Source: Cystobasidiopsis lactophilus (taxonomy: Eukaryota > Basidiomycota > Agaricostilbomycetes > Agaricostilbales > Chionosphaeraceae). Taken from it: a stretch of 64,000 bases of DNA. Location: the NCBI GenBank assembly GCA_001599975.1, contig BCIO01000003.1, forward strand, positions 1,916,677-1,980,676, read 5' to 3'. The notes under the pieces were generated by a model. That model searched no databases and was not told the origin of the DNA. It saw nothing but the letters and a program-made list of their open reading frames with translations. Numbering within the stretch: position 1 is the first letter of the stretch; every line of letters begins with the position of its first letter. The translations under genes were made by a program, and so were the position numbers. Below are positions 6,726-64,000 of this stretch, piece by piece.

Positions 6726-8183
6726 TCAGCACGTCTGGATCTTGAAGTCCCACTTGGGCTGGCCTTGCTCATCTAGCAGGCCGCTTTTGTTCCACCGTGT
6801 AACTTTTAGCTGGGCGAGCCTTTAGTGCACGCAAGACTTTTGGGAGCTCACAATTGGTTCCTGTTTTCGACTTGAGTGGCTTAGTGTCTTTTGAGATTAT
6901 TTGAGGCGCTGAGCCACTCAACTCGCCCGAGGCGTCCGAGTAGACATGGAGGAACCAGCCGATGCTGTAATTCTTGAAGACCGCGCAGTGCGTGTTGAAG
7001 TTGGTCCAGTACGCCTCTTCGTCTGGCACCGACATGCCGCTGGCCCGGTCGTGACCTCCGGATTTGCTAGCCCATTGGGTCTTGGTGATCATGATCTGCC
7101 GCCCGACCGCGATGTCTTGGAGGAAGCCGAGCTTGTCTTCGATGTAAGGCCACGCCGCCGCCCCGCTGGGGATAGAACTTTGATAATAGGGCATCACTGT
7201 GCGAGGACCCGATGAGTTTTCGCCACCTGGACTGAGAAGTGGCCAAAAGCAGCTCACCGTGCGCGTTCACAAGGTCGGTGGCATTCATGAGCTTGGCACC
7301 TGCAGCCGTGAGAGAGCGGTCGGAGGAAGACTTGATGAGGGTGCCGGACCGATACCAGTCTTCCGACATGGTGACCGGAATGGAGAAGGAGGACAGGCTG
7401 GCCTTGAAATTGATCAGGTCGTTTGTGAAATTGTCAATCCCGCCATCAACATCATCTCCGATTCTGCGGTGTGGCAAGTCAACAAAGAAAGCCGGTAAGC
7501 TTTGCAGAAAAGCGCGCTCACGGCTCCGAGCCAAATTGGATCGAGTAGAAGACGTACGGTGCCAAAGGGTTCGAGGTGATTTCGGCTAGGAGCGAGGCTT
7601 GGGTTTGCTTGCGCAGCTCCTCCGAGTTGTCTTCAAAGCCCCACCAGACCTGCGGGAGAATCGCCAGATTGTTGGCCACTCCAGCCTTAGCCAGCGTCGT
7701 CCAGATAGACTGGTCTCTACACTCTGGCGCATAGATCCGAACGAATCGACTTTGGTAGTCAGACCGCATGTCTGCGAAATCCGTCGAAATCTTGGAGAAC
7801 GAATTTGACGCGCTCGAACAGTCGGCATCTTCCAGAGGATAGCTGAAGCCAAGGAATCCAGTTATCCGTGATGCATCGCAAAACCACTCGGAGCGAGAAG
7901 TGGCGGGCGGCGAAGATGAGTTCGAAGGAAAGCTGGCATCGTAGGGGAAGCAGCCAGTAGGCTTGCTCGATGAAGTTGGCTGGGGTAGTGAGGAGGGAGA
8001 TGAAACTGAACCGATTGACACGGGAAGGATCGAGCTAGCTGTAGTCGATGGAAGAGCTGAGCATTGTCGAAAGACACGCTGGAAATTGCGCTTGGCGTGT
8101 ACGCGAGTGCCAAAGCCAAAGTGACGTGCATCGACTCCGCAGAGAAAAAGAAAGGCCCCAAAGAGAGCTCGCAAGGTGGCCAT
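6726..8183 (-). CDS. Secreted GH17-type glucanase-like protein, nucleophile replaced (copy A)
   Basis: Glycoside hydrolase clan-A barrel of the GH17 type, probably exported to the cell wall. The N-terminus MATLRALFGAFLFLCGVDA looks like a signal peptide, followed by a Ser/Pro/Thr-rich linker. The barrel starts at GFLGFSYPLEDADC and includes VRIYAPECRDQSIW and LPQVWWGFED. The acid/base motif FGSEPIGDD is present. At the position where the neighbour has VSEMMW (aligned with the GH17 ETGW nucleophile motif) this copy reads MITKTQW, so Lys replaces Glu (codon 7081-7083). It ends with GLLDEQGQPKWDFKIQTC, the same ending as copy B. It is a tandem paralogue of the gene at 8893-10419. I infer it is catalytically weak or inactive, perhaps glucan-binding. 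Confidence 0.8.
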
Positions 8184-8892
8184 TTTCAAATTGGGCGGAC
8201 ATGGGCAGAGGTGCGAGCGCAAGAAGAATGGCACGGAGTTAACGCCACCCCACCTCGTCGCTGAAGCACTCGAATCCATCGGCCACGTCCAGTGTAGAGC
8301 ACGGAATCAGAAGGCGATCGTCAAGTACGAGCACTATTAGCGCGAGTCCGATGCATACTATGACTTGCCAAGGACCGGGCAAGAGCAAGCGCTGGCGCAG
8401 ACCAGAGCACTCGCAAGACGTCAACCGTGCTGTGAAAGCAACCAGACGATCCATTGGACATGATCCACTACCAACGCAAGCCGGGGACCGTGCATCATCA
8501 TCAAATTGGGATGAGCTGAATCGCTTTCGTCGCACATTCAACTTGGCTCGCGACGACGGCGTCGGTGATCCCATCTGCTCTCGTTGTGTCTGGCAAGACT
8601 GCTTCTAGAGACGCTTGCCATCGACCAGCGCGTGCGTTTGCTCAATCGGCGGGCCAGAATTCGGTAGTGTCGCCGACAAGGTCTGAGAGAATGTCGAACG
8701 CGGTACGAGGACTGGATGAACGCGCAGCTGGTGTCTGCATCTGGTGGATGTCCTCAGTACCAGATGCGTCTGTTGTGGGCAAGAGCGCAGGTTCTCCAAT
8801 CAAAGGAATGTTTTTTTTAACGCAATCGAAGCTCAGCTTCACACCGACTACAAGCAGCAAGATCCTGTCTCCGCCGCTGAAAGGAAGCCTGT
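8184..8892. other. Intergenic between the two GH17 genes
   Basis: About 710 bp upstream of copy A and downstream of copy B. Open frames here are short and motif-free. A run of T at 8812-8818 lies near the copy B end. No gene is supported. Confidence 0.4.
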
Positions 8893-10419
8893 CTAGCAGG
8901 TCTTGATCTTGAAAGGGAATTTGGGCTGGTTGTTGCCATCCAACAGGCCGCTGCGGAATACTCGTCAGTTTTAAGAACGATCAGCTCTGGGCGAGCAGCT
9001 CACAAGTAAGGCCTGCAAAGAAACCGGGTCAGCTTCCTTGCTACAGCAGTAGAACAGAATGTGCACTTACTCCTGGGCATCGCTCCAAGTGTGGAAGAAC
9101 CAGCCGACGCCAAGCTTCTTGAACGTCGCGCAGTTGGAATTCACGCCATCCCAGAAATCCTGCTCATCCTGCAAGCTGACCCCTTGAGAGCCAATGTCGC
9201 GACCATGGTAGCCCATCTGGGAGCTCCACATCATTTCTGAGACAATGACTTGCTTCCCTCCGGCGATATCCTTGTAGAAGCCGAGCTGGTCATTGGTGTA
9301 GCCCCAAGCCGAGGCACCGCTGGGAGAAGGGAACTGAGAGTTTCCTCCGGAATAGTATGCCATCGCTGTCGAGGCGTGAGGCAAGAAATAGACAGAAACA
9401 AAGGCGAGGAAGCTCACGATGAGCGTGCACTTGGTCCATGGCGTCCATCAGCTTGCTCCCGGCGTCGGTCAACGATCGATCCGAGTTGATGAGGCTGCCG
9501 ACACTGTTCCGCATCCCAGAAGTGAGTCTCGAGAAGCAGTGGCTGCAGGGGAGCTTCGAACCGATTCCAATCCTCAGAGATGGTGGCCGGGATCCCGCTC
9601 TTGGACAAGCTCGACTTGAAGGAGATGAAGTCCGTTGTAAACTGGTCAATTCCTCCATCCACGCCGTCTCCAATTCTGTCAGAGCAAAGAAGTGGTGAGC
9701 CGGCACGACTCTATGGAAGTGAAAGTAGAGCAGACGCACGGCTCGGACCCAAACTCCACGGAGTGGAACGCGTAGGGAGCGAGAGGGTTGGAGTTGATCT
9801 CGGCAAGAAGGGCGGCCTGCGACTGCTTGCGCTCCTCCTCCGCGTTCCCGTCGAAGCCCCACCACACCTGAGGAATCACGCCCATGTTGTTCGCCACCGC
9901 GGCCTTGACCAGGGTGGCCCAGATGGTTTGGTCGCGGCACCCGGGCGCATAGATGTGCACATAGGTGGCTCCGTAGTCCTTCTTCATCTTGGCAAAATCG
10001 GCGCTAATGGATTCGTAGGAGTTGCTTTGGCCAGAGCAGTCGCTATCCTCCAGAGGGTACGAGAAGCCCATGAAGCCGTGCACTGAAGGACACCACCACT
10101 TCTTTCTGCTCATCGAGGGTGCACCAGAGCTTGGGAAGGAGGTGGAAGCCGGGAAGCAGTTTTTCGAGCTCGGTGCTCCTGTGGAGGTTGGCGCTGCCGT
10201 CTTTGAGCGCGTCTTGGTGGTGAAAGTGGCCGTGGGCGCGCTGGGCCGGCTGGTCTTGTGGTGGCCAGACTTGCACTTGCTCCTCGGTTGAAGGCCCCTT
10301 CGGTGGACGACTTTGCCAGCGTGGTGCCTCCTGTGTCGAACAGTGTGCTCGCCCGCAAAAGAGGGAAGGGCTAAAGAAAGAGCGACTAGAAGCCAAATTG
10401 ACGCTCGCAGAGCTGCCAT
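8893..10419 (-). CDS. Secreted GH17-type beta-1,3-glucanase (copy B)
   Basis: Probable cell-wall beta-1,3-glucan hydrolase or transglycosidase. Signal peptide MAALRASIWLLVALSLALPS is followed by a His/Arg-rich then Ser/Thr-rich linker. The catalytic domain starts near GFMGFSYPLEDSDC and has VHIYAPGCRDQTIW and IPQVWWGFDG. The acid/base Glu is in VEFGSEPIGDG and the putative nucleophile Glu in IVSEMMWSSQ (codon 9235-9237), so both GH17 catalytic residues are present. The C-terminus reads GVGWFFHTWSD and, after an intron, GLLDGNNQPKFPFKIKTC. The start is the ATG immediately before the hydrophobic stretch; a methionine further upstream would spoil the signal peptide. It is paralogous to the gene downstream on the same strand, so a tandem duplication is likely. 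Confidence 0.85.
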
Positions 10420-11589
10420 GGTATCAAACTGAAAGAGAGAAGAGAGGAAAACGCGTTTTTGGACGACGAAGGACAAGAGGAGGCCGTGGAGGCTCGAGCG
10501 TCACGGTGGTTCGTGCCGATCCTTCTCCGAGGCGTGACGAACATGCAAAGTCTACGCAAAGCCACTACTTTGTTCCAGCACCAGCACTACTACCTATTAA
10601 GAAGCCCTTGGCACGGATGCAGCAGCCTTGGCAGAGCGGCGCTGCCTTTGCCTTGAAGATGTAGATGCTTGGTCAATCTTTGGCCACACGAGCAAAAGCG
10701 CCACCATCGAACTTTGGCCATCAAAGGATCGTTCCAGAGCCACCGCATGAGCAGAAAACCGACATCGAGCAGTTCGAAGGAGAGCCAGACAGGCAGCCGG
10801 CAGAATGCACACACGGCGACGTCGACCAATTTTGGCTCATGCGCGCGAAGGACTTGGATATGCCTGTTTTCGTGGCTTCGCGTTGGCGTATTTGCAGTGG
10901 ATGCAAGCCTTGTTGTTCATTGGTGGACAAGGAACAACGTCCAAGACCCGAGAGACGACTGCGCTTGGCTCCTTGCTGCGGATTGGTTCTGCTCGTTTTC
11001 CAGGGCCAGCAGGCTTGCACTCTAATCTGCTCAGTCTCTTCTCGCTTACTTCCTTGCAATGTTGTCTCAGAGTAGATGGCGAGCAAGATGTGCCGCTCGT
11101 CAGGTTTTGTGCGGGAGCCTGCGCTTGGATTCTTCCAACTGCCCTATGTACCAGCTGTCACCTTAGATCTGCCATGCTGGTGCTATCATCGATCCTTCTT
11201 GCTCTGGGCTGGATATGGCGGCTTCTAGAGCAGCATTACAAGCTGACAGCTGGCGCCCCTGCAAATGGCCTTTCGCCAATGCAGTTCGCTGGTCAACCTC
11301 TCGCCATCCCAGTCCCTTCCTCAGCCTCTAGGCTACCCTCTTCCAGATCTAGAGACCACGAAGACCACGGTCCCTTTTCTGATCGCCTCTCGCGCATATC
11401 CACCAAACATCGACCCACCCGCGGCTTTCGCGCATGTGTCGCCTTGAAAAGCCGCTCTATTTCTTTGGTCTCTGACCACGACCTGCGACTGACTAGCCTC
11501 ATATTTTCGCTCATATCTTACCTACCCTTCCCAGTGAGTAATCCTGTGAAGTTTTAGGCCTAGCTCAAGGCCAAGCAGCTCTCAAAAAC
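10420..11589. other. Long intergenic stretch with unsupported frames
   Basis: Nearly 1.2 kb between the GH17 copy B start and the next plus-strand gene. An ATG-to-stop frame of about 250 codons runs on the plus strand (10805-11557). It has one hydrophobic segment (LVLSSILLALGWIWRLLE) but otherwise looks random, rich in Ser, Arg and Leu. On the minus strand, two overlapping cysteine-containing frames between 10590 and 11090 could be parts of a small spliced gene, but no family was recognised. I call no gene here. Confidence 0.35.
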
Positions 11590-22171: not shown

Positions 22172-23564
22172 TTACAATTTGGATGTTGCAATACCAATAG
22201 AGGCATCTCCGCACTCGAAGTCGTCCCACCCGGGCCCTAGGACTGGCAGTAGGCCCTTGCGACGAACGGCAGTGACTTTGACCCCAGTCTTCTTTGACTG
22301 AGGCAGAGTCAGGCTGCGGTGCTCCTGCTGGGTCCCAGCTGCCGACGGAAAGCCTTTGGGAAGCTCTAACGTGTATTCGCTGTTGGATTGCCATCTGTCA
22401 CCGAGAGCATGCGCCACCTTGAATGGTCCTTCACTTACTGGTCGCCGGGCAACAAGTTGGCGGTCTTGGTCATTTGAGGCTCCATAGGGAAAATCTTTCT
22501 AGGTCGGATCGCATTCGTTTGGTGGTTTAACAGCTTCTCTGGGGTGAGAGAGAATCAACGAGACTCCCTAGTGTCAGGGGATTACTTACTCCAGTCCATG
22601 GTTTGCAGAAGCTCCCCGATGATGTAAAATTGCCTAGGGAGCAAGTCAGACTTGTGCAAAGGTTCCAAACAGCACGCGCGTACGGTGGCATCATAAAGAT
22701 TCCCTTGTCCTCGCCGCTGTCGAGCATAGCGGTAGCATGCAGGAGCGCTTGCTCGATAGCTTCTTGAGGCGTTAGCCACTCTGCCAATACACTGTGTCTA
22801 CTGTTTAGCCTCGTCTGGGCAAATAGAGAAGGCTTTACGTCTCGGCGTCGTCTGCGGTGGCGACGGGCTCATCCTGGTCCGGGGCCACCGCGTCCTCAGG
22901 AAGCATCGAGATGAAGAAAGAGGTGTCAAAGCGCCTCTTGTTTACTCGTGGCGTAACCCATCGGCCTCTTGCAGCCAGACTCTGGGGGCACGATGTTACT
23001 TGAGACAGGCTTAAGCGCGCGAGAACGGCTCGCCTCTAGATCGGGTTTCGCCTTGTACTGCTTGAAAAGCTTGATGAACTCTCCAGCAGAATCGTGCACA
23101 CGCTTTCGCCATTCGGCACGGTCCGAAGGAGAAAGCTTCTGGGCCAGCCCTTTGGCATAGCTAGCCGGGGGCTTCAGGTTTGGACTATCAATGACCAGGT
23201 TTGCCACAGCTTACAGCACTCCACATTCTTCAAATGTCTCTCGAATAGCACAGATCTTGTGAACGCGAAGCTCGTCGTTAGCCACTCCGGGCAACAGCTC
23301 GTCCCACTCGGCGGACGAATCTGCTGCATCGACAGCGCCGCCGGGAAAGACATGCGCGCTCTTGAACGTCGAGGATTGGGAAGAGCGCTTTAGCAGCAGG
23401 AGCTCAAAGTTGAATTGGGTTCTGGAAGGCGACAAGGGCGCGAGGATCACAAGCGAAGCGGAAGGAGTCGGCGTCGAAGGCGGCATGCTGGCCAGTGAGC
23501 GTCGCTGCTGCAATTGTGCAAAGGCTCGTGGCTGGAGCTGTCCAAGGGCGCGTCTGGTACTCAT
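22172..23564 (-). CDS. Peroxisomal Nudix hydrolase, NUDT19-like (CoA diphosphatase)
   Basis: Likely hydrolyses CoA and acyl-CoA in peroxisomes. Exon 1 has MSTRRALGQLQPRAFAQLQQ, a Nudix beta-strand ASLVILAPLS, then AHVFPGGAVDAADSS and the Nudix box core IRETFEECGVL. The insertion between the GG and the REtxEExG part is characteristic of the NUDT19 branch. Downstream exons have WVTPRVNKRRFDTSFFI, WLTPQEAIEQALLHA and LPGDQ. The last exon ends VLGPGWDD...IGIATSKL, where SKL is a canonical type 1 peroxisomal targeting signal at the very C-terminus. The final intron is best read as 44 nt (GTAAGT...GACAG). Five or more exons. The presence of a PTS1 in the same frame as the family's C-terminal block is strong support. 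Confidence 0.85.
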
Positions 23565-24077
23565 ATGAACATCATGATGTGGAGCCGGCCGATTGGAAGG
23601 GAGAAAAAGCGTGCAAAGAGGGTCGCCGACGGAAGGGCGCGGGGCCCAATTTATGGACGAGGAGCTCTCGAGGACCATGAGTTGTAGGCCGTCGCGGGTG
23701 GCAAATCAGGTGATGCGAAGGGAAAAGAAAAATGGAGCAAAGGGACAAGCTCTTCGCTCTCCACTGATCGATAGACTTGTAGCCCTCTGGAGACAAGTGA
23801 TTCGAAGTTCTGGGCTCCACTACTGCACGTACTCGCGATGGCCACTGGCGAGGTCCATCGCGATTCGCGATCGCCGTCTAGTCCGAGCCTGATTTGCTGA
23901 TGATCGCCGTCGTCGTCCCGCCTCGTAGCCAATCTGAACCACAGTGGCGTTGTCTCAGAAGATTGCCTAGAGCTTTTTTGTGAAGCTCGATGCTCCGGCG
24001 TCAAATTGGATTCTTCCCGCATTTCTCTCCCTCTTCAAGCCTCTGCACATCTCCTCCTTCTCCCACCGCAATAGATC
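23565..24077. promoter_or_regulatory. Divergent promoter region
   Basis: About 510 bp between two start codons facing away from each other (NUDT19-like gene and a secreted-protein gene). C/T-rich just upstream of the plus-strand start (ctccctcttcaagcctctgc, 24026-24045). No named site was identified. Confidence 0.4.
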
Positions 24078-25116
24078 ATGCGGCTCTTCTTCTTTGTCGC
24101 CTTTGCCCTTCTTCCTTTCCTCTCTTCGTCTACCGCTTGCACTACACCTGGGCAGAACCCTTGTCAGAATGGGCTGTCCTGCACCGATGCTACCAATGGC
24201 GTTGAAGTCGTCGAGACGCTTGCCGATGGCACCAAGCGACCCTTTGGGCACAACATTACAGATCCAGACGACATTGTTGCTACCATCTATGTGCAGGACT
24301 ACAACATCTTGTCCAACTTGACTGGTGGCTGTTATTGCGTCTATCACACCCCAGACCATTGGTCAACCCGTATATTTCTCACCGCATGCCTTCACGGGGA
24401 GCCTCCATGGTGGGATGGTGCTTCCATTCGGATTGGATCAGATGGATGGGACGGCTGGTTCGACTGTTACTCGGTGCGTAGCACATCCTCGCTGCTCAAA
24501 TCGGGCAGAATGACAGCTAACGCCATGTGCGCTTGCAGCAAGATGACAAGAACCCTTATACCGTGCCAGCAGCCTTGGTGAAAGACGCATCGATCACCGA
24601 CATGAGCACGCTCACCTACTTCGAGCTCTACTGGCCAGCGCCTCAGTTCCACCTGAACAACCCGTTCCCGCAGGGCGCGGTCAGCAACCCAGACGGAATA
24701 TGCTTAGGCTACCCTGCCGATTATCAATGTACGTTTTGACCTTGTGTGCTCTGCTCTGCCGTGACTCAGCCCGACGTTCTAGATTCAAACGGAGAAGTGG
24801 GCGCCCCAATCGTCGCCGGCATCAATTGCACGTGTACAACGACCTGGACGGTTATCAACGACGGCTCGTACCATGCGTCTACGGCAACGCAATCTTGGAA
24901 CACTGTGTGTGACCAGGGCCTCAATAATTATTGGCGAGTCTTCTCTGCACGTCTTAATGTGCTCGCGCTCATCTCCAGGCATGTCACTACAGGGTGGGCG
25001 ATGGTGCAGCTCCAGTGCGGAGGGATCATCCAAGTGGCAGCACCAGTTGGTTTAGCGATGCCTGCACAAGCACGGTTGACTTGAATGCCGGCCCATTGAT
25101 TGCATACATGGCTTGA
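24078..25116 (+). CDS. Secreted protein of unknown function
   Basis: Begins with a clear signal peptide (MRLFFFVAFALLPFLSSSTA) followed by the Cys-rich CTTPGQNPCQNGLSC. Later segments read IYVQDYNILSNLTGGCYC, GWDGWFDCYS, FHLNNPFPQGAVSNPDGICL, NCTCTTTWTVINDGSYHAS and CTSTVDLNAGPLIAYMA before the stop. Several NxS/T glycosylation sites and paired cysteines indicate an extracellular, disulphide-bonded protein of about 270 residues. At least three introns are needed. I do not recognise the family. The frame of the last exon was chosen because the other two frames end in low-complexity sequence. Confidence 0.65.
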
Positions 25117-25194
25117 GGGTCCCTGTGAATATGTTCTCGTTTCTTGGTGTACCTAAGATGGACGAAATGCATGCAAGGAGGAATTTGCCGCCGT

Positions 25195-26703
25195 TCATGC
25201 CACCCGTTCATCAATCTGGTCCCGCAACTTCTCCATCTTGGCGCGATGAGATATCACCCGAGTCCCAAGAGTATCAAGACAAGCCTGGATCTGATCTCGG
25301 GTCGTCTTTGCTAGCCGCTTCCACCGCTTGTCATTGCTGGCCTGGGCGATGCGCTCGGCAAACGTCCTGCCAAGAGGCTTTGTTAAGGGTAGCTTAAACT
25401 GCAACTGTTCACCCACTTACTTGTATAGTCGATCGCTGGAAGAAGCGGGTCAGCCTGAGAAGGTGGCGAATGAAGACGATCACCCACTCTCGAGCGAACT
25501 GATAAAAAGGCAGCTCGGCACCAGCGACAGAATCCGTAACAACGTTCCATAACCCAATCATCACCAGATCGCATGTTGCATTCGAGAGATAGTCTTGAAC
25601 AGAGGCGATGGAAGCCGTTTTGTCGAGGCTTCGAAGCTCCGCAGTGGCAAAGTCTGCGATTGACTTGTAGGCAGTGGCAACCGGCAATCCTTTGAGGCCA
25701 GCTCGAAGAGCCAGTGCCACATTCTGGCTTTGAGTTTTGATCCACTGACAAAATGAAGTTAGGCCTGGATGGGCAGCAACAAGCGGAAAGAGAAGCTCTA
25801 ACTTTGTCCCCTTCGCTCATCCTGTAGCGAGCACATCATCAGCGACTGCATACAAAAACAACACGGAAAAGCAACTGACACGATCACTTGGAGATAGCTA
25901 GACACGAGGTTTGTATCGTTCGTCGCCAAACTGTGGTTAATGGCAAGTTTCAAGTTGACCCGAACTCCGCGAAGGAGCGCTTTGGTCTCCTTAGACGGCT
26001 CTTCGTCACTTGGCAAGTTGTTCACGAATCTCGACAGCGCGCCGGTGATCAAGATGGCAATGTCGTGATGCGATTTGCCGATGCGGATGGCCTGACAAAG
26101 GTTCAGCTGGCCAGATTAGAGAAATATTGCGGTACACACGTGGAGCAAAGGGGTGATGCTGGCCTGTGAGGACACCAGCAGCCCAAAGGCCGAATCTCGA
26201 GCCTCGAATATCAACCCCAAGTCCTTCTTTTCAATCGCACGCAGCAGCTCCCAGTGCTGCAGTGTCCTCTTGGTGGAAACTGCAAGGCCACAACTGTGAG
26301 CAGAAGCCTCGCGCGAAAGAGGAGGGGACACCTCACTGCCACCTGACAGCACGCCGGCCCCTTTGACCCCAGGATTGGAGATTGAGAACGTCCGCCGCTT
26401 GCCGGGTCTCTGAGTCCCTTCTGAAAGGTCTGAAGCTTCAGATTCGGACCGCTTCCGGGACCCTTGCTCGGGGAGCGGATTGACTGGACGAGGTAGCGGG
26501 GAGGCCAACGCCCGTTGGATGGAGGCAGTGGTGATGGCATCAGTCTTGGCACTGCGTTCTATCACGGCTAAGGGCGGAAGGCGAGAGATCAAACAGGAGT
26601 GTCGTGGCTGCATGGACCTGGCCATGGGCTTTGAAGATGGGCCCGCCTCTGCTTCTGGTGGGCTGAGGCTTTGGAGCATCCATGTGTAGTTCAATCCGAC
26701 CAT
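25195..26703 (-). CDS. Conserved fungal helical protein, unknown function
   Basis: A predicted protein of roughly 420-450 residues in four or more exons. The first ~110 residues are low-complexity and Ser/Pro/Arg-rich (RSMQPRHSCLIS, RKRSESEASDLSEG). The conserved part starts at LQHWELLRAIEKKDLGLIFE and continues through helices such as AIRIGKSHHDIAILITGALS, ETKALLRGVRVNLKLAINHS and NLVSSYLQV. Then come VQDYLSNATCDLVMIGLWNV and a basic, coiled-coil-like end (TRDQIQACLDTLGTRVISHR). The helical pairs vaguely resemble ankyrin-type repeats, but no repeat consensus is met. The pattern recalls an uncharacterised family of fungal proteins. The N-terminal ATG may not be the true start. Confidence 0.6.
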
Positions 26704-27058
26704 TGTACCAGTATCTGACCCTGTTAAGCCTCGGGAGGCAAGCTCTAAGGACCAGCTACAGTGCGGTCTGGCAAAATCGAGGTGGCGGCTGTGGAAGGGG
26801 AAGTGACGCCGAACACCCCGCCCTTTTCGGTTCGCGTCCGCTTAGCGGTCCCTGATGGTAGCTCTGAAAATGTACTCTGCTAAATCTTTGGTTTTCAAAC
26901 GTGAAGAGTTCCGTGTGATCGCTGCCCGTCAATAGCATACGACGCCGACTTCTCATGGCTACATGAACTCTATCTTATGTCTACCGCAATCCCTGTCTCT
27001 TGTCACCATATAGATGGATCACAGTGAACAGTGAGGGAACTCGTAAGCGAATGTCGTT
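26704..27058. other. Intergenic
   Basis: About 355 bp separating two minus-strand genes. No gene or notable element seen. Confidence 0.4.
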
Positions 27059-27767
27059 TCAGAGCTTCGATTTGCGATGCGGCGCATTGGTGTTGGCTCG
27101 AGCATCGGTCGCAACGACAATCAGCTGGCCGTCTCGCTTCCGAACGATCTTCACTTCCACTATGGCAGATTGTCTGCCCTGCTTGAGTGTTGTACAGGTG
27201 ATGCTATCGGCTCGCGTCCATGAGCAGATGTCGTGCTGAGCGAGAGCGAAGGACATCTCACTCTAAAATGTCGTTAAGAAAGACGGGAGCCAGATAGCGA
27301 ATCTCAAGAGAAGTGCTGACCCCCCTGTCGAGAAATATCAGCCGCGTTTGTGCTGAAAAGTACTGCGAATGTCGTACGTGTTCTCGAAGGAAAACGGTGT
27401 CGAGAAGATGCTAACGGTCAAGCCTGAGCAGCACTCGAGTAATGTCGCTATGCAGCCTGATTCCGTGAGAAAAGTCAACGACAAGATCACTGGGGTGGTA
27501 TCTTGAGAAGTCCGAACCTCCATGGATAAATGTGCCCATGTTGCGCCACTCCTTTTGATCCATTTTGAGCTCAAGAACCATAACAGCCCGTGAGGTGGCG
27601 TGAGGGATGAACCTCTCGTCGACAAATGAGCCATCGTCGATTTCCAAGTCAATCAAGCGCAAGTTTTGGGCCAGGGCGGCGTCCCATCCTTTAAATGCTT
27701 TAGCTTGCGAGACGGTGCTTATTATCCGAGACGCAATACGCTGGACAGAGGGGTTGGGGAGCCGCAT
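27059..27767 (-). CDS. Hotdog-fold acyl-CoA thioesterase, PTS1 SKL (copy A)
   Basis: Small thioesterase of the PaaI/THEM2-like hotdog superfamily, expected to hydrolyse acyl-CoA. Exon 1 ends in the active-site motif MGTFIHGG. After an intron the frame continues CIATLLECCSGLTVS, so a Glu stands where THEM2-type enzymes have Asp. Another exon has GVSTSLEIRYLAPVFLNDIL, the standard second strand pair. The last exon has SAIVEVKIVRKRDGQLIVVA, the final two strands, and ends ANTNAPHRKSKL. The SKL ending is a canonical peroxisomal targeting signal. Copy B upstream shares HGGCI-TL--CC and the ANTNAPH / ASTNAPH ending, so the pair arose by tandem duplication. Start ATG at MRLPNPSVQR; an earlier exon cannot be excluded. 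Confidence 0.82.
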
Positions 27768-28196
27768 CGTCGTTGGTCGAAGAGAAACGGGGGCTCCTAT
27801 ACGCCCGTGTACGCAAGAAAGCTACGCGCCGACAAAGGTCAGAACCCACCCTCTTTTGAGTAGCAGCATGTCCCTACTACTGCCTTCAATTGAAAATCGA
27901 CATCCATTCACGTAAAGTGCGTACAGTAGCAGATCGGGGAGCTCCGAGTGCTGAAGTGTCCATTCAGGGGACACCTTGGGATTCAGGTCTGCATTCTCCT
28001 TAGGCCGAGAATCAGTCTACATGAGAGACAGACGGAGATCCAGGAAAGCATAAGGAAACACAGAACATCGAAAAACGAAGACGCCAACTCGCAAAAACTC
28101 ATAGGCAAATTTGACGAAAAAGGAGGCGAACGCAAGTCTGGGAGTGAACATTCCTGGACCGGTCTGTTTCATGGCGCATTCATAGCCCAGGACTGA
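27768..28196. other. Intergenic between thioesterase copies
   Basis: About 430 bp with no recognisable gene; the promoter of copy A should lie here. Confidence 0.4.
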
Positions 28197-28932
28197 CTAC
28201 AACCGTGCTTTATTGTGTGGAGCGTTGGTGCTGGCTTTGGCGTGGATGCCGAACGCAATGAGCCGTTGATCCGCGTGACGGACCACTTTCGCCTCCACCA
28301 CTACCGTATTATCATCTTGTTTGAGAATGGTGGAGGTGATGCTGAGCGGGCACATCTTAGGTCGTTTGCAAACTGGAGGAAGGCCACGGGCCATAGGCTC
28401 TCGAAAGCATCTTACATGAGTCGGTCCTTCAAGAAGGCGGGGCGAACGAAATGAATGCTCAGTGATGTGCTTGCTCCCCTGAGACAGAGGAAAGTGAGAT
28501 CGTTTTAGGAAAGGTGGATGGGCGCTCAGGCTCACATGTTCCGCCAAGCAGGTGAGTCTGGCGTTGCTAGGGCGCTCACAGCCAGCGAAGTGCAGCAGTC
28601 AATCAGTGTCAATATACAGCCTGTATCGAAGGAATTCAGACTGGCATAACGTTGCTAATGAAGGAGGGCTTCTCACCGCCATGAACGAATCGGACGTGAT
28701 TGAGCATGAGGGCTTCCACTTCGATTGAGCACACTAGCTTGGCCTTGGAAGATTGAGAACGAGGCAGCAGGCTGGCGGAGGTAGAAGATGCGTGGTTGAT
28801 TTCGATGCTAACCAAAGCGAGACCTCGAACAAGCGCCGAATCCCAACCGTCGTTCTCTTTCACCTGGCGAAGGATCGCATCTAGACGCAGGGCCACATTT
28901 TGAGCGTTTGTGGACGGGTCGAGCAAGGACAT
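28197..28932 (-). CDS. Hotdog-fold acyl-CoA thioesterase, PTS1 ARL (copy B)
   Basis: Tandem paralogue of copy A. Exon 1 starts MSLLDPSTNAQNVALRLDAI and ends HVRFVHGG at a GTGAGA donor. Exon 2 reads CILTLIDCCTSLAVSALATP with the Asp expected of THEM2-type hotdog thioesterases. Exon 3 has SKHITEHSFRSPRLLEG, a degraded form of the usual GVST strand. The last exon has NTVVVEAKVVRHADQRLIAF and ends HAKASTNAPHNKARL. ARL fits the PTS1 consensus (small residue, basic, Leu), so the enzyme is probably peroxisomal. It is divergent from the HAD phosphatase gene. Further upstream the frame stays open for more than 80 codons, but the sequence there looks random. Confidence 0.82.
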
Positions 28933-29343
28933 CGCTGCGCAAGGACAAGCCTTGCTTTTCTCAGGCGCATGGGCAATTAAGAGCGGATTCCACACGTAAG
29001 AGCAGAAGGTTTGCCGCCCTAGAACGATTTGACGACGAGAGGTCGATCTGGAGTCAATTTGATCAGAGGGCAAACCGGCTGACCAGCGAGCAGAGTACAG
29101 TGCAGAGCCGCCAGATTCCCGATTCACATCTCGTTCACATTGGAGCAAAGGACAGGGCTTTCGAAGCGCCGCAGCAGTCGCGTGCATCGCAATGCAGCTA
29201 GCGTCGCTGGGTTAGATTGATAAGAACCAGCGAGATGATGCCAAAAGAAAGCAATGGCCAACAGAAAGCAACCCGAGAGAAAACATGCATCTCAGACCTC
29301 GACCACCACCACCCAGCAGGCCTGTAGCAGGTAGGAGTCGAAA
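28933..29343. promoter_or_regulatory. Divergent promoter region
   Basis: About 410 bp between thioesterase copy B (-) and the HAD phosphatase (+). The pseudo-open frame continuing upstream of copy B lies here and is not thought to be coding. Confidence 0.35.
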
Positions 29344-30377
29344 ATGATCAAAGCGTTGCTGCTCGACTTGAGCGGTACATTGCACATCGGCTCCACGCCA
29401 ACAAGGGACGCGGCCAAAGCCCTGCGCCGCCTGCGAGATGCGCAAATCCCACTTCGGTTTTGCTCCAACACTACCAAAGAATCCCGTTCGTGCATGTGCA
29501 TTGGATAGGTTCGACGATCGCTGAGAGAGCATATAAAGGGGCGGCGTTGTTGAAGCGCTTGAACGAGATGGACTTTGAAGTTCGGGCCGACGACCTCTTC
29601 ACAAGTTTGAGCGCGGCGCGGTCATTAGTGGGCGCCAAGAAGTTGAAGTACGGCTGATATCTCGATCAGAATGTTATAGCGAGTCAAAGGCTGACCTTAT
29701 ACGCACCTGGAAAGCCCGCTGTTGTTGCTTTCTGATTCGGCGCTGGACGAATTTGCAGATCTGCCCGCATCGGACCGGCCATACGACAGCGTTGTGTAGA
29801 TAGCAATCCACTCTTCGCTTGCTGCTGGACGCGCTGACGCTTTGAGAACCAGGGTCGGATTGGCGCCAAGTCGGCTTTCGTATGCCCACATGAACGAGGC
29901 TTTCCAAGTTCTGTCAGAGAAATCGGACCCGCCACCGGCATTAATAGCAACTCACAAAGCGTCATTTTATCGATCAGACGACGGAAAGCTGTCACTTGGT
30001 CCAGGTCGGCCCTCTCTGTCCTGGCAGCCTTCCGGACCCTGTCTGATTCCTCTCTCTTTGGCACGCATTGAACAGGCCCGTTCGTGCTAGCTCTAGAGTC
30101 TGCCGCCAAGGTACAGGCGACGGTGTGTGGCAAGCCCTCGGAAGCCTTTGTGCGGATCTGTCTGGACAGCTTGGGCTCGGACGTGGACGTGAACGAGGTC
30201 GCCATGGTAGGCGACGACATCAATAATGACTTGGGCGGCGACGTGGCAAAACTGGGTTTGAAGAGGTTGTTGGTGAAGACAGGCAAGTTTCGAGAGGGCG
30301 ACGAGCAGGCGGCCGGGTTCGACGGCGTGTTTGAGGACTTTGCCTCCTTGGTGGACCATCTATTGGCTCATCGATAG
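29344..30377 (+). CDS. HAD-superfamily phosphatase, HDHD2/LHPP-like
   Basis: Haloacid-dehalogenase type hydrolase with a C2 cap. Motif I is ALLLDLSGTLHIGST: the nucleophile Asp is present, and Ser replaces the second Asp, as in LHPP (DISG) and comparably to HDHD2 (DLNG). RFCSNTTKESRS is motif II (NTT). Further exons have LSYAHMNEAFQVL and LIATHKASFYRSDDGKLSLG, the typical cap region. The last exon has VQATVCGKPSEAFV (motif III Lys) and EVAMVGDDINNDLGG (motif IV). It ends VDHLLAHR. The substrate is uncertain (small phosphate esters or phosphoramidates in relatives). At least five short introns; the start ATG is directly before motif I, as in the family. Convergent with the dynein light chain gene. 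Confidence 0.85.
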
Positions 30378-30475
30378 ATCTGGATAGCATACTAGAGTGT
30401 TAAGGATGGCTGTTATTGAACCACAATGGAGGGACACGCACAACAGCCATTAAAGACACGATTAGAGCGCTATCT

Positions 30476-31019
30476 TCAATAGGCCACTCTACATGCAATG
30501 GCAGTGGCAGTGGCGACGATCTTGTCGTTGGTGTAGACTGCCTGAGAGATGCTGTCCGATGCGCTGTCCCTGTCCCGCGGCCAGGTCAGCTTAGCTCGGA
30601 GAGCCTAGAGTGGGAGGAGATCAACTGAATGCGTACCAGTGTGTGCAGGCAACCCCAAGTCCTTCTGAGCCCGCCACTTGAATGGACACCGTAACACAAT
30701 ACTTGTATCCAACTGGGGCCAGAGCCACCATAGCGCCCTTGATCAGCCCTCCGACCAAGTTGGCCATCTCCTTGCTTCCGGCTTTTGAGTAGGAAGCGTT
30801 CGCTAGATGGGACTTTAAGATGGCCTGCATGTCGAGTTGAGAAGGGTCAAACCTGGTTGGAGCAAGAACCAGCACAAGAAGTCAGCCCAATCGCAAGGAA
30901 TGGCCTCGATAAACAAGGATGGCGCACGGCACGATTCGAGAGGAGCGGGAGAACGAGGCCTCGCTGGACCCTGGGCTCAAAGTGTCGGGCTTGCTAGGCA
31001 CAGGCGTCCTGTTGAGCAT
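30476..31019 (-). CDS. Dynein light chain, Tctex type
   Basis: Small dynein-associated light chain that binds the intermediate chain and cargo. The central exon reads FDPSQLDMQAILKSHLANAS, then KEMANLVGGLIKGAMVALAP, then YKYCVTVSIQVAGSEGLGVA and CTH. This is the Tctex1 pattern of an N-terminal helix pair followed by YKYxVT and a strand. A last exon (TWPRDRDSASDSISQAVYTN, then DKIVATATAIAC) corresponds to the usual Cys-Trp-Asp strand and terminal strand. The first exon is proposed as MLNRTPVPSKPDTLSPGSSE; its borders and the start are weak. The total of about 125 residues fits the family. Stops of this gene and the HAD phosphatase are 98 bp apart. Confidence 0.75.
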
Positions 31020-31120
31020 ATCTTGTGGGCTCTGCGGTGGCGGAGGGAGGGAGGGAACTCGATACATTGTTTCGTGGTGGTGAATCTGGGACAAGACTAT
31101 TCTATACAAGTGGGCTCGCG

Positions 31121-33130
31121 CTAGCGGCTGATGACCGCTTCGAGCTGGGAAGGAGTGCGCTGTTCCTCCTCGCCGATACTGGAGATGCGGACGGAGAAGC
31201 GGTGATGCTGCTGCTTGTCCATGCTGTCTGTGCTCGACTGAGACGCAACCCTCGGCACGCCCAATGGGCCGCCCTCCGAGCAGCTCGGTCCCTCGGGCAG
31301 GTCCTCGAGCGGGTCGTAGATGAGCAGTGTGCCAGGCGTGGGCAGGGGGCGGCAGGGCGAGCAGCTGATTTTTGTGTGCGCCATTTGGCGGACATCCGCC
31401 AGGTCGTTGGTGGTGAGAAAGAGCATGACCGCCACGATGCTCACGTCCAACGGCGTCTCGGCGTGCGTTTTGAGGCCGATGCGGCGGTTCAGGAATGGTG
31501 GAAGGATGAGGTGGATGTCAGAGAACGAGGGATGGGTAGTGCCCGCTGTGTTCCTCGTTCGTCACACCAACGCATAGCGGAAGGATAAAAAAAGGACGCA
31601 CTGATGCTGAGGATGCAAGAGTCGGAAATAGTGGATGTCATCTTGGCCAGTCTCTTGTAGTCCGGCGAGAGCGTGAACTCCTCGCTGTTGATCACCAGCA
31701 CGCTCTGGTTGATTTGGCCGGTCCATGGCTCGAGTCCTGCGTCTCAGAGAATAAATACTGTGAGAGCCAGGCAAAATAAGAGGTCCCCTTACGTTGGACG
31801 GCTGGGTCGAAGGCAGTCACTGAGGCGAACTTGAACCTTTCGTCGGCTGCGGCAGCAATGGCGAGCGTGCCGCCAAACGAATGGCCGCACATGTGGATCT
31901 GGTTGAAATCCATGACTTCGGTGTACTTCAATGCGCGGCGATTGGCAGGTCGGCGAATCCAGTGTGGCCTCTCGCCGTGAGCGCCTTTGTGAAGGATGTC
32001 GAGGAGCTGGTAAGTTTCTTCCAGCCGCAGTTTCAGTTGCTCCTTTCGAAGGGTCGTGTCGTCTAAAGGCTGCTCTTCTAGATCGGGCCACCTAATGGAC
32101 GCCTCTGAGCAAGGTTCAGGCCTGGCGCAAATTAGGCACGTACGACAACTCTTTCCAGTCGAGCCAGTCGACAGACTTGGTCTTGCCATCTTCCAGCTGC
32201 ACCGTGCTCGCGGGTCCAGATCCTGTGCGACAATTTTGAGGCGCTGCACGGCTAATTTTGGAAGTCAGCTCACCGTCTCGGTGTTCGATCGCAATGACCA
32301 TGTAGCCTCTCGAAGCCATCTCGCCGCAGAACGCTGAGTACATTAAGCGCGAGCAGCCAACACCATGGCTGAAGATCATGATCGGCCATTTGCCTTCGTC
32401 GCCGACCGGCTTTAGCAGTGGGCCGTCGCGCTCTGCTGGGAAAGTGGTGCCAAAGATTGCTGCCGCTGCCAGAGGATCTGAGAGAATGGATTGAGAAAGT
32501 TGGGATGGCAATGGGTCAAAGAGGTCACGAACAGGCCATCCACCGGTAGAAGACATTGATGCGCCGGGCCATCCGCAAGAAGCCATCCACCGTCTGAGAG
32601 AGGTTTGGAAACCAGATGGAGTTCTTTTGCTTCTTGCTGGCCGGCGTTTCAGAGGGGTAGAAGACGGAGAACAAGACAGTGTCGAGAGCGATGCCGCCCT
32701 CGCGGTCCGGCCAACGCTTGTGCTTGAAAGAGCCAAAGCGCGAATGTGGGACTTTGATCTCAATATCGCAGCATCCCACTCGGTGAGGCTGTAAGGACTT
32801 TGAGCGTGGTTCGGCACGAAAGCTGGGCCAGCGAACTTACTCCGGAATCTGCAACAAAGGGAGTTCAGCTTCGAATACTACAACCTGAGAACGCCGCAAA
32901 GAGCCAAGCCTACATTTTGGCAAAGCACGGCTCCAGAGAGCGCCCATCCAGCCCGCTCTCTTGTTGGCCACCACCCTGTCGCCATGCCCCAAGAGAGCGC
33001 TCGCCTGACCTTTGATGTCCTGCAGAAGCTGCTTGTTGCGGTCTAGGGCGTCGTTCAAAGAGACCTGAGAGCCATTGGCAGAGTTGTTGGCGTAGGGCGG
33101 CGCATCAGCAATGAGGCTATTGGGCGGCAT
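31121..33130 (-). CDS. Platelet-activating-factor acetylhydrolase-like esterase
   Basis: Serine esterase of the alpha/beta-hydrolase fold, PAF-AH II / plasma PAF-AH type, cleaving short or oxidised acyl chains from phospholipids. Segments in order: an N-terminal leader with NDALDRNKQLLQDIKGQ; GCCDIEIKVPHSR; IALDTVLFSVFYPSE; the oxyanion-side motif WPIMIFSHGVGCSRLMYSAF; MVIAIEHRDG; a helical insert; the nucleophile elbow MCGHSFGGTLAIAAA (Ser); TAFDPAVQ with the likely Asp; and SVLVINSEEF. The last exon ends QLEAVISR. The catalytic His is probably in one of the later small exons. Many short introns. The most upstream methionine-like start in the frame is TTG, so the first in-frame ATG (33130) is given. 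Confidence 0.8.
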
Positions 33131-33349
33131 TTGGGGAGGCTGGAATTCGATGAGGCCGCACGACGCGGGCGCTGTGGCTACGGGGGACGGTTGGGATTTA
33201 CAGACGGACGAAGGCAAACAGAGTCAAGGGTATATAAAGCTGGCCGCAAGTGCTGAAGGCAAGGAGAGCGCCGCCGTCGAGGTACAACAAGCTTGTCCGC
33301 CGACGACATCTTCCCGCCGATCCCTACCTACCTCGCACGCGGCCCCAAT

Positions 33350-33743
33350 ATGCTGTTCAGGCAAGCGTGCATCTCAACTGCTTGTCAGTGAAGCTAATGC
33401 GAGAAACCAAAGCAGGACGCTCAACTCAACGAGCCGAGCCAAGGCATTGGGCTGCCGCCTCACTTCGACCGGCCGCCGCCTGTATTCGAGCGAGCAAGCC
33501 AGCCCTTCAAGCCACCGCATCATTTACACCCAACTGATGCCGTCTATGCTGCACGCCTTGGCCTTGGGGAGCATCACCTATTACGGGCTCGAGCTTTTGT
33601 GGACCAAATTGGACGCTTCCTATGCCATCCAGGACAAGCAGGCGGAGGTGGACGGGCTCAAGGCTCAGTGGGAGCAGCAACAAGCGGGCAAGGATGTGAG
33701 CGGAGCGGATGGGCAGCAAAAGGCCTGGTACAAGCTATGGTGA
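33350..33743 (+). CDS. Small mitochondrial membrane protein (Coi1-like)
   Basis: The last exon encodes a basic, Ser/Arg-rich stretch ending RRLYSSEQ, a typical presequence cleavage region. This is followed by YTQLMPSMLHALALGSITYY, one membrane helix (GLELLWTKLDASYAI), a coiled-coil-like EVDGLKAQWEQQQ and the stop. The short C-terminal part resembles small inner-membrane proteins of the Coi1 kind in fungi, but the match is from pattern only. A spliced start at MLFRQACISTACQ with a 28-nt intron containing a CTAAT-like branch site would join in frame, although that intron is unusually short. Alternatively the start lies in an upstream exon. It is divergent from the PAF-AH-like gene. Confidence 0.55.
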
Positions 33744-33819
33744 TACAGCAGCCAGCTGCACCATTTGCTTCAAGCCGATGAACGCTACTGGCACGGTCAG
33801 CATCGCAACTGGCGAAGAG

Positions 33820-34777
33820 TCAGCCGAGTAGAACAAACGCACCAGACAAGAAGCCAGACAGCGCCCGAATCGACTCGGCCCCTCGCTGCACCTCGAAAAC
33901 ATCCCAGAAGGCAAAAACAGCGTCACAGCCCAGTCGAGCCCTCTCCCACCACAAATCCGTCAATTCGAGGCTGAGAGTCGCCAGTTCGGCTGAAGCCATT
34001 TCAGTTTCGTCCTCTTCCGCCACCGGGCTGTCCAACAGCAGCCCCAACGCTTCGAACCGAGTCCGCTTTTGCAATCGCATCTGTTGGACGCGGGACAGCC
34101 CAAGCAAGCTCAGTGCGAACCAAGACACGTCCGCGCAGGTGTCGGCTCGCCGCCGGATCCTGACTGAGAGCGGGCTGGAGGGGAAGGCCAGTGTCAAGAA
34201 GAAGAGGTCGTCGGCCAGGTTGTTGACGACGGACAACAGGCGCTCGAGGATCAGCGACAGAGAGGACGAGAACTGCGAGAAGACCAGGGCCTGGGAAGAT
34301 GGCAGGGAGATCTTGGAGATTTCGTACACTGCATCGAGCAAGGTGTTGAGCTTGCGGGTCAGTGAGAGGGTGGAGACCACGATGAGAAGTCGAGCGGCGC
34401 GAGATTGCTGATTCCCAGGCCGCTCATGCGACCAGATGTAGAGCCGGAGAGTGTATTGGATGGCCCTCTAGAGCCCAACTTTATGTGAGCGAGCTGGCGT
34501 CGGTTGTGAACTAAAGGGAATGGTGGCACTGACAATGAACCGCTCGCGCCCCTCTGCGGTATGCAGCAGGATCTGAACGAAGCGCCGCCTCTGGAAAGTC
34601 GGTTTGGGCTCTGAAGGCACGAACTGGCGAAGGTAAGGCAACTGGTCAGCGAAAGCCGGGCCTCTTGGTGCGAAGGGCACCCACCTTGGTAGAGACGGAA
34701 GAGCTAGACCTGTGTCTTGACACTGGCACTGAACTTGAACATGATGATGGCGCGAAAGACGTGGAAGACATGCTCAT
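33820..34777 (-). CDS. PEX11: Peroxisomal membrane protein, PEX11 family
   Basis: Peroxin that elongates and divides peroxisomes. Exon 1 is a Ser-rich leader (MSMSSTSFAPSSC). Exon 2 has LPYLRQFVPSEPKPTFQRRR and FVQILLHTAEGRERFI. Exon 3 starts RAIQYTLRLYIWSHERPGN, which matches the PEX11 pattern of a first amphipathic helix leading to a conserved Q-Y-x-L-R-L stretch. Then come TLSLTRKLNTLLDAVYEI, SLILERLLSVVNNLADDLFF and a hydrophobic region ending LSGAFVLLG. The overall length is about 270 residues. Two introns (43 and about 66 nt) were verified in frame. The gene is convergent with the small mitochondrial protein gene (76 bp between stops). It sits in the same region as three PTS1-tagged or CoA-related peroxisomal genes. 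Confidence 0.8.
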
Positions 34778-40038: not shown

Positions 40039-40137
40039 GCTTGAGCCAATAGCCAACTCAAACGCGAGAATGCCAGCCGCTGGTCGGGAGCAAGCCGCCC
40101 GCAATCCGCTTGAGCCGGGTTGGCTTCGAACGACGAG

Positions 40138-40593
40138 ATGCTGGTCGGCATAGGCACTGACATCCTCCACCTGCCTCGTTTGAGCCGTCTCATCAAGCGC
40201 TACGGGGTCGAGAGGCTGGCCAGGCGGATCCTGAGCTCAAACGAGCTACTGCGGTTGGAGCACACGCCGGTGCAACAAGTCCCTGGTTTCTTGGCCTTAA
40301 GGCAAGCTCATTCAGCTTCCAGTGAACAACGAATCTCAGGAGCGGCGGAGCACAGGTGGACGGCGAAGGAAGCAGCCTATAAAGCGCACAATGGTATTAA
40401 ATGGAAACTAACGACAATCACCAAGACCGCGCTGGGCAAGCCTGAGCTGGTCGCCACCCTCCCTGGCATCCGGTGGCACTTGAGCGTCAGCCACGACGGC
40501 GACTTCATGACGGCTTTCGTGGTGGCTGAAGAGGAGAGCGGTGGCGGCGGCGGAAATGGCGGGAGAGAAGAACGGACACCGACGACGAACTGA
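40138..40593 (+). CDS. PPT2: Holo-[acyl-carrier-protein] synthase (4'-phosphopantetheinyl transferase)
   Basis: Transfers phosphopantetheine from CoA to acyl carrier protein, probably mitochondrial ACP. Starts MLVGIGTDILHLPRL with the metal-binding Asp in GTDI. A second block is RILSSNEL, then ALRWTAKEAAYKAHNG with the second acidic metal ligand (Glu), if a GC-AG intron of 54 nt (40302-40355) is removed. It ends WHLSVSHDGDFMTAFVVAEE followed by a Gly-rich tail. Spliced length is about 133 residues, matching AcpS/PPT2; the retained form adds 18 residues in frame. The retained-intron frame stays open, so both forms are possible. Convergent with NOP56. Confidence 0.88.
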   Translation: MLVGIGTDILHLPRLSRLIKRYGVERLARRILSSNELLRLEHTPVQQVPGFLALRQAHSASSEQRISGAAEHRWTAKEAAYKAHNGIKWKLTTITKTALGKPELVATLPGIRWHLSVSHDGDFMTAFVVAEEESGGGGGNGGREERTPTTN

Positions 40594-63145: not shown

Positions 63146-64000
63146 ATGGCGACACAACAATTCGCTTCGGCGGACGAAAAGCACAACCACTCGGTCTCCT
63201 CCCAGGGCGATAGCGACGAGACTCGCACTGCCACCCACGACTACCTCGGCAAGCCCGACGAGGAGGCGGCCGTCGACAACTCGAACCTCAGCCCCGAGTA
63301 TGCCGCCCTGCTCTCGTACATTGCCGATTCGAGCAATCGCAAGCGGTCTGGCGGCGACAATGCCGATGGCGAGACCGTCGAGAAGAAGCGCATCTGGTAC
63401 AAGCCGTGGGCCACCCGGGAAGTCCGCTACGCACGGGACGGCACCGAGATCAAGTCGGATGCCGTCAAGGCCACTCCCCCCGAATGGTGAGTGTCTTCCG
63501 CTGCCCGCTCTGGAGCTGCCCGCTGACTGCTGTGTGCAGGCTTGAGACCAACATGTCCCAGGGCTTGACCGAGGACGAGGTCAAGCGGCGCCGTGGCATT
63601 TCCGGCTGGAACGAGCTCGAGGCGTATGTTCCCCCTCTTTTGGAGCTCCTAAAAATTTTTGGAGGCCAGGAACTGACTCGGCTGCCCTTCACAGCAAGCG
63701 CGAGAACCTGTTCATCAAGTTCTTCACCTTCTTCACTGTTTGTTTTGCCCCCTTCCGAACGTCACCCTGTTGTTTTGGTCGGCTAAAGCTCCTATCTTCT
63801 GATGATCGCAGGGCCCTATCCTCTACGTTATGGAACTGGCAGTCGTCCTCGCTGGCGGTCTGCAAGACTGGATTGGTGCGTCGCCGCCCGCGCACGTTTT
63901 ATCAAAATTGTGATCCTGACCAAAATCCGGCAATAACAGACTTCGGTGTGATCGTGAGCCTCCCTGGCCTTGTCTCCGACCTGAGCCCTGCTAACCTGCT
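63146..64000 (+). CDS. PMA1: Plasma-membrane H+-ATPase (5' part)
   Basis: P-type proton pump that energises the plasma membrane. Only the N-terminal region lies in the window; the rest is beyond the right edge. Exon 1 (to 63486) is an acidic, Ser-rich cytosolic tail ending WATREVRYARDGTEIKSDAV. After an intron come LTEDEVKRRRGISGWNELEA, KRENLFIKFFTFFTG, PILYVMELAVVLAGGLQDWI and DFGVI, i.e. the cation-ATPase N-terminal domain and start of the first membrane helices. Introns at 63487-63539, in the Glu-Ala codons near 63624, after FFTFFT and within the codons of WID were checked in frame. The last visible exon ends with a GTGAGC donor at about 63953. Confidence 0.94.

Follow-up and report, generated by a model that had tools for sequence, protein, structure and literature searches.

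A stretch of 64,000 nucleotides of the Cystobasidiopsis lactophilus genome (contig C3:1916677-1980676, hereafter the window) carries a NUDT19-like Nudix hydrolase gene, two tandem hotdog thioesterase genes (TE1 and TE2) and a gene of the PEX11 family. The proteins encoded by the first three end in type 1 peroxisomal targeting signals (PTS1), and judged from these sequences their peroxisomal location is likely. The four are probably ordinary peroxisomal genes, residing near each other mostly by chance. The genome measures 22.1 Mb and is assembled in 8 contigs. The four genes were modelled by hand splicing on GT-AG introns, 30-74 bases in length. All four, with their C-termini, were found at 22172..34777, where a sequence-only reading of the same DNA had placed them. 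Spliced models and Pfam domains bear out its claim that four peroxisome-linked genes lie here, and the C-terminal SKL, SKL and ARL which it had read are in frame (GIATSKL, RKSKL and NKARL, respectively).

Tagged thioesterases and Nudix hydrolase

TE1 and TE2 feature 4HBT domains (47.7 and 46.8 bits, respectively, both above the Pfam cut-off of 20.6), have a four-exon layout in common and are 42% identical. The pair is an old tandem duplication, which arose locally. The TE2 protein, used as query against the genome, gave seven matches, corresponding to three loci: TE2, TE1 and a third one (TE3) on contig C5, unlinked to the window. TE3, spliced with one GC-AG intron, ends in DRLKSKL. TE1, TE2 and TE3 are mutually 37-42% identical, and the proteins of all three loci found carry canonical tags at their ends (KSKL, KARL and KSKL, respectively), the tripeptide being preceded by Lys (position -4) in each. 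The last exons of TE1 and TE2, in which the final hotdog strands run in frame straight into the tail, are 54% identical at the DNA level. Because the tag is kept in three paralogues at such identity, and in last exons so diverged, the thioesterase tail looks constrained. A genome-wide search with the 4HBT Pfam profile gave no match, missing TE1 and TE2 themselves, presumably because the domain is split across exons. A cytochrome P450-like open reading frame (ORF), recognised by eye, starts ~2.5 kb beyond TE3 on C5.

Among solved structures, TE2 matches those of THEM2 best (2f0x, E 1.3e-9). Active-site residues of THEM2 (3F5O) are given as Asn50, Gly57, Asp65 and Ser83 in an excerpt of PMC13114782. 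N, HGG, D and S are found at these positions, assigned by reading alignments, in TE2 and TE3. In TE1, the THEM2-type catalytic Asp is replaced by Glu (exon 27456-27378), and is retained in TE2, its tandem partner. TE1 need not be a dead enzyme, because Glu73 is given for 1Q4U in the active-site table of the same excerpt (PMC13114782); the replacement possibly denotes substrate divergence from TE2.

The NUDT19-like protein matches the Pfam NUDIX profile at residues 28-96 (23.4 bits, cut-off 21.1). Its sole PDB match at E <=1 is 3qsj (E 0.0073), in which FPGGA, ALRET and RFDTRFF are aligned. No match was found in NCBIfam, and the five matches reported in the genome all correspond to the gene itself. 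The protein features a FPGGA.D..D..W motif, a long stretch from FPGG to RETFEECG within the Nudix box, RFDTSFF, and the C-terminal PTS1. NUDT19 is the likely label for this gene, these being general features of the family. The last exon is open from the CAG acceptor, which follows a 44-base intron with a GTAAGT donor, to the stop. Were this final intron retained, the protein would end in LLPGDQ. Of the three tags, this one is the least certain.

The terminal motif [SAC][KRH][LM] is found, in the coding frame, in the NUDT19-like protein and in TE1, TE2 and TE3. Across 164 kb, 3,513 stop-to-stop ORFs reach 30 amino acids or more, and 24 of them end in the same way (0.7%, the three window genes included); seven of the 24 ends, including C3:1877016 (ends VSRL), were inspected in sequence. 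PTS1-type ends mark 10 ORFs of at least 35 amino acids in the window alone, and three of these are the genes described here. The tags exceed chance in a post hoc test, in which P is ~4e-5 for three tags among 10 genes, and 1.6e-3 for two among nine, when the tandem pair is counted once. Conservation is better evidence than frequency: the third paralogue also ends in KSKL. The acyl-CoA oxidase match on C5 served as a control, and the ORF that overlaps it ends in SAKL (C-terminus read by eye). SKL and ARL both fit the PTS1 expression applied to the basidiomycete Ustilago maydis in an excerpt of PMC11842775, and according to an excerpt of PMC9133605 an mCherry-SKL reporter reaches peroxisomes in the same species. 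Type 2 signals (PTS2) were not found in the eight N-termini checked. VLSKL, on the plus strand at window position 63910, was rejected as a gene end, as by eye the frame continues past a GTGCGT donor.

The Nudix enzyme and the thioesterase pair would be imported into peroxisomes via their PTS1 tails. From what is known of the families, the thioesterases would release coenzyme A (CoA) and free acids from acyl-CoA inside the organelle. The products of the Nudix enzyme, acting on CoA or acyl-CoA, would be 3',5'-ADP and (acyl-)phosphopantetheine. Together, these activities may adjust the CoA pool of the matrix. The thioesterase pair stems from local duplication, and the rest of the closeness would need no further cause.

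PEX11 and the interleaved genes

PEX11 acts in the elongation and division of the peroxisomal membrane. The PEX11 protein of the window scores 44.2 bits against PF05648 (cut-off 23.8), and covers profile positions 7-215 of 222. Two further PEX11 loci reside in the genome, and none of their neighbours was recognised by eye as peroxisomal. Coordinates of the genes in the region are reported in the table. As the sequence-only reading had cautioned, the genes are interleaved with others and are not all co-oriented: strands are mixed, and a HAD hydrolase, a Tctex-1 gene and a PAF-acetylhydrolase lie between the peroxisome-linked genes. The window has 126 further ORFs with a length of 125 amino acids or more, and Pfam scans of 124 of these (7 + 16 families) revealed no family known to us as peroxisomal.

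Table. Genes of the region, in window positions.
Feature	Position	Strand	Description	Exons
NUDT19-like Nudix hydrolase	22172..23486	minus	355 amino acids, ends GIATSKL; spliced model, Pfam NUDIX	7: 23486-23215, 23184-23000, 22965-22839, 22800-22684, 22633-22590, 22538-22439, 22394-22172 (stop 22172-22174)
Interleaved gene	24078..25116 (approximate extent)	plus	signal-like N-terminus, without C-terminal tag; by eye	
Interleaved gene, kind not assigned	25195..26703 (approximate extent)	minus	no Pfam match in two exons tested	
TE1, THEM2/PaaI-type hotdog thioesterase	27059..27767	minus	178 amino acids, ends NAPHRKSKL; spliced model	4: 27767-27518, 27456-27378, 27324-27262, 27203-27059
TE2, tandem paralogue of TE1	28197..28932	minus	182 amino acids, ends NAPHNKARL; spliced model	4: 28932-28677, 28620-28536, 28478-28416, 28341-28197
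Interleaved HAD-type hydrolase	29344..30377	plus	ends LLAHR (no PTS1); PF13242 44.2 bits, last 98 residues	
Interleaved Tctex-1 (dynein light chain) gene	30476..31068 (approximate)	minus	PF03645 34.4 bits; last exons hand-spliced	
Interleaved PAF-acetylhydrolase (isoform II type)	31121..33130 (approximate)	minus	ends AVISR; PF03403 67.4 and 32.3 bits, two exons	
Small gene-like ORF, convergent with PEX11	33537..33743 (start uncertain)	plus	no Pfam match	
PEX11-family gene	33820..34771	minus	280 amino acids	3: 34771-34685, 34641-34534, 34467-33820

A probable 4'-phosphopantetheinyl transferase with a WTAKEAAYK motif is encoded on the plus strand at window positions 40114-40590, and ACPS was among the Pfam matches of the scanned window ORFs. 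Like the NUDT19-type enzyme, it would presumably release 3',5'-ADP from CoA.

Chance, cluster or accidental tags

If the tandem pair is taken as a single locus, ~nine genes include three independent peroxisomal loci. If 100-200 peroxisomal genes were placed at random among 7,000-10,500 (numbers assumed), 0.2-4.2 equally dense groups would be expected per genome, in a calculation which is post hoc. The sequence-only reading had suggested a loose functional cluster. On such a view, selection would keep the CoA- and acyl-CoA-hydrolysing enzymes and the division gene linked so that they can be regulated jointly, e.g. on fatty acids. The gene identities (NUDT19 as a likely label only), tag frames and likely location given in that reading stand; the functional cluster remains conjectural, since chance may supply such a group. 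Any common theme could have been picked by that reader, which weakens the grouping further. A cluster is in our view distinctly unlikely, and the arrangement of the genes adds to the doubt. Strands are mixed, and genes of other kinds are inserted. The NUDT19-like gene and TE2 each start divergently from an untagged gene, and therefore any common promoter region would be one shared with those (by eye). PEX11 and the plus-strand ORF next to it converge, which leaves no promoter in common there. Judged by eye, the neighbours of the other two PEX11 loci offer no parallel. Titles and abstract beginnings searched in the literature revealed no peroxisomal neighbourhood of this kind, absence being not proven thereby.

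Some observations weigh against proximity by chance of truly tagged genes. With 70 peroxisomal genes (again assumed), such a group is expected 0.08-0.22 times per genome, and chance is therefore not certain; this figure and the density of the three loci favour a cluster. TE3 too adjoins a PTS1 gene: it lies tail-to-tail with an epoxide hydrolase gene, 72 bases separating the stops (C5; L011:933-1686, L022:4033-5547). The N-terminal exon of the latter matches EHN (52.8 bits), and the last exon ends in KKTTSRL. A kinase-like gene (by eye) ending in AKSKL resides on the plus strand at C3:1995200-1996736, ~45 kb from PEX11. Together with the TE3 locus, it hints at a weak genome-wide tendency of PTS1 genes to cluster. 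Accidental tags also exist. An ORF on the plus strand at C3:1874500-1875313, ~41 kb before the window, ends in ASKL; by eye it corresponds to the zinc-finger part at the C-terminus of the DNA polymerase delta catalytic subunit, a nuclear protein. Lastly, a coding model trained on 20 ORFs only, weak and unfit for gene calling, does not favour the end frames of TE1 (-1.5) or TE2 (-0.1). In the same model, the last-exon frame of the NUDT19-like gene is ahead of the other frames by 19.7 bits, though its absolute score is negative (-12.2).

An accidental origin of one or more tags, with proteins that remain cytosolic or are located elsewhere, is highly improbable. The polymerase-like ORF and the 24 ends among 3,513 ORFs denote that PTS1-type tails do arise by accident, and the tail frame of the NUDT19-like gene is supported by its own sequence, not by a homologue. 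In contrast, the tag, with Lys at position -4, is kept at all three thioesterase loci despite their divergence, and the NUDT19-like tail is of the strict SKL form. Chance proximity of tagged genes remains the preferred reading. The value of the region is mostly one of annotation, as it provides three PTS1 candidates; to call the grouping a cluster would require comparative evidence.

By eye, the gene ending in AKSKL is phosphotransferase-like, and resembles the kinase part of ACAD10/11. At C4:2708000-2728000, an acyl-CoA oxidase match is found beside an ORF ending in GKSKL, ~14 kb from an MFE-2 hydratase-2 gene. A Gfo/Idh/MocA oxidoreductase adjoins the hydratase-2 gene, and a catabolic cluster is possible there. 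The oxidase and the hydratase-2 were considered as a second PTS1 pair and rejected, since the hydratase appears to end in ATLA. Eleven anchor loci were found, six of which fall within the stretches read; the second MaoC gene on C5, SCP2 and three catalases lie outside them. The TE3/epoxide hydrolase pair, the AKSKL gene and the C4 loci are too few, and too selectively examined, to demonstrate clustering.

CoA recycling and known systems

A broader view, which we regard as rather doubtful, is that basidiomycete peroxisomes run an overlooked set of CoA-recycling enzymes, made by a NUDT19-type diphosphatase and three THEM2-type thioesterases, each bearing a PTS1, and that PTS1 genes tend to adjoin each other. 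According to an excerpt of PMC10629195, in which basidiomycete proteomes are not stated, NUDT19 is confined among fungi to Mucoromycotina; the NUDT19-type gene described here sits in a basidiomycete, outside this group, and a CoA-recycling set of this kind, if true, would contradict the published confinement. The aspartate-semialdehyde dehydrogenase encoded in the window scores 373 bits with 5cef, a Cryptococcus structure, and at most 313 with the ascomycete structures 6c85, 5jw6, 3hsk and 4zhs, in line with a basidiomycete host. A Nop56-type protein of the window, best matched by Nop56 chains of yeast and others, is uninformative in this respect, and so is a basidiomycete rDNA primer pattern, which gave no match in an assembly that may lack rDNA.

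The thioesterases may be compared with THEM2/ACOT13 (PDB 2f0x, 3f5o). TE2 and TE3 share with it the same N...HGG...D...S arrangement. In contrast to THEM2, all three proteins are marked by a C-terminal PTS1, TE1 carries Glu in place of the Asp, and the thioesterases here have ~30 extra N-terminal residues. PTS1-tagged THEM2-type thioesterases of fungi were not found in titles and abstract beginnings, which does not prove their absence. The PEX11 (PF05648) copy on C5 gives a better six-frame match than the window copy, 55.8 versus 24.5 bits at best.

NUDT19 is a peroxisomal CoA diphosphatase; the gene found here differs in its basidiomycete host, and database support for the assignment is weak (NUDIX 23.4 bits; 3qsj E 0.0073; none in NCBIfam). 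The long insert in the Nudix box presumably marks it as being of the NUDT19 rather than of the NUDT7 type. The Pcd1/NUDT7 enzymes of yeast and animals, as described in the excerpt of PMC10629195, are peroxisomal Nudix CoA diphosphatases as well, and carry out, in the same compartment, the same reaction as is proposed for the Nudix gene of C. lactophilus.

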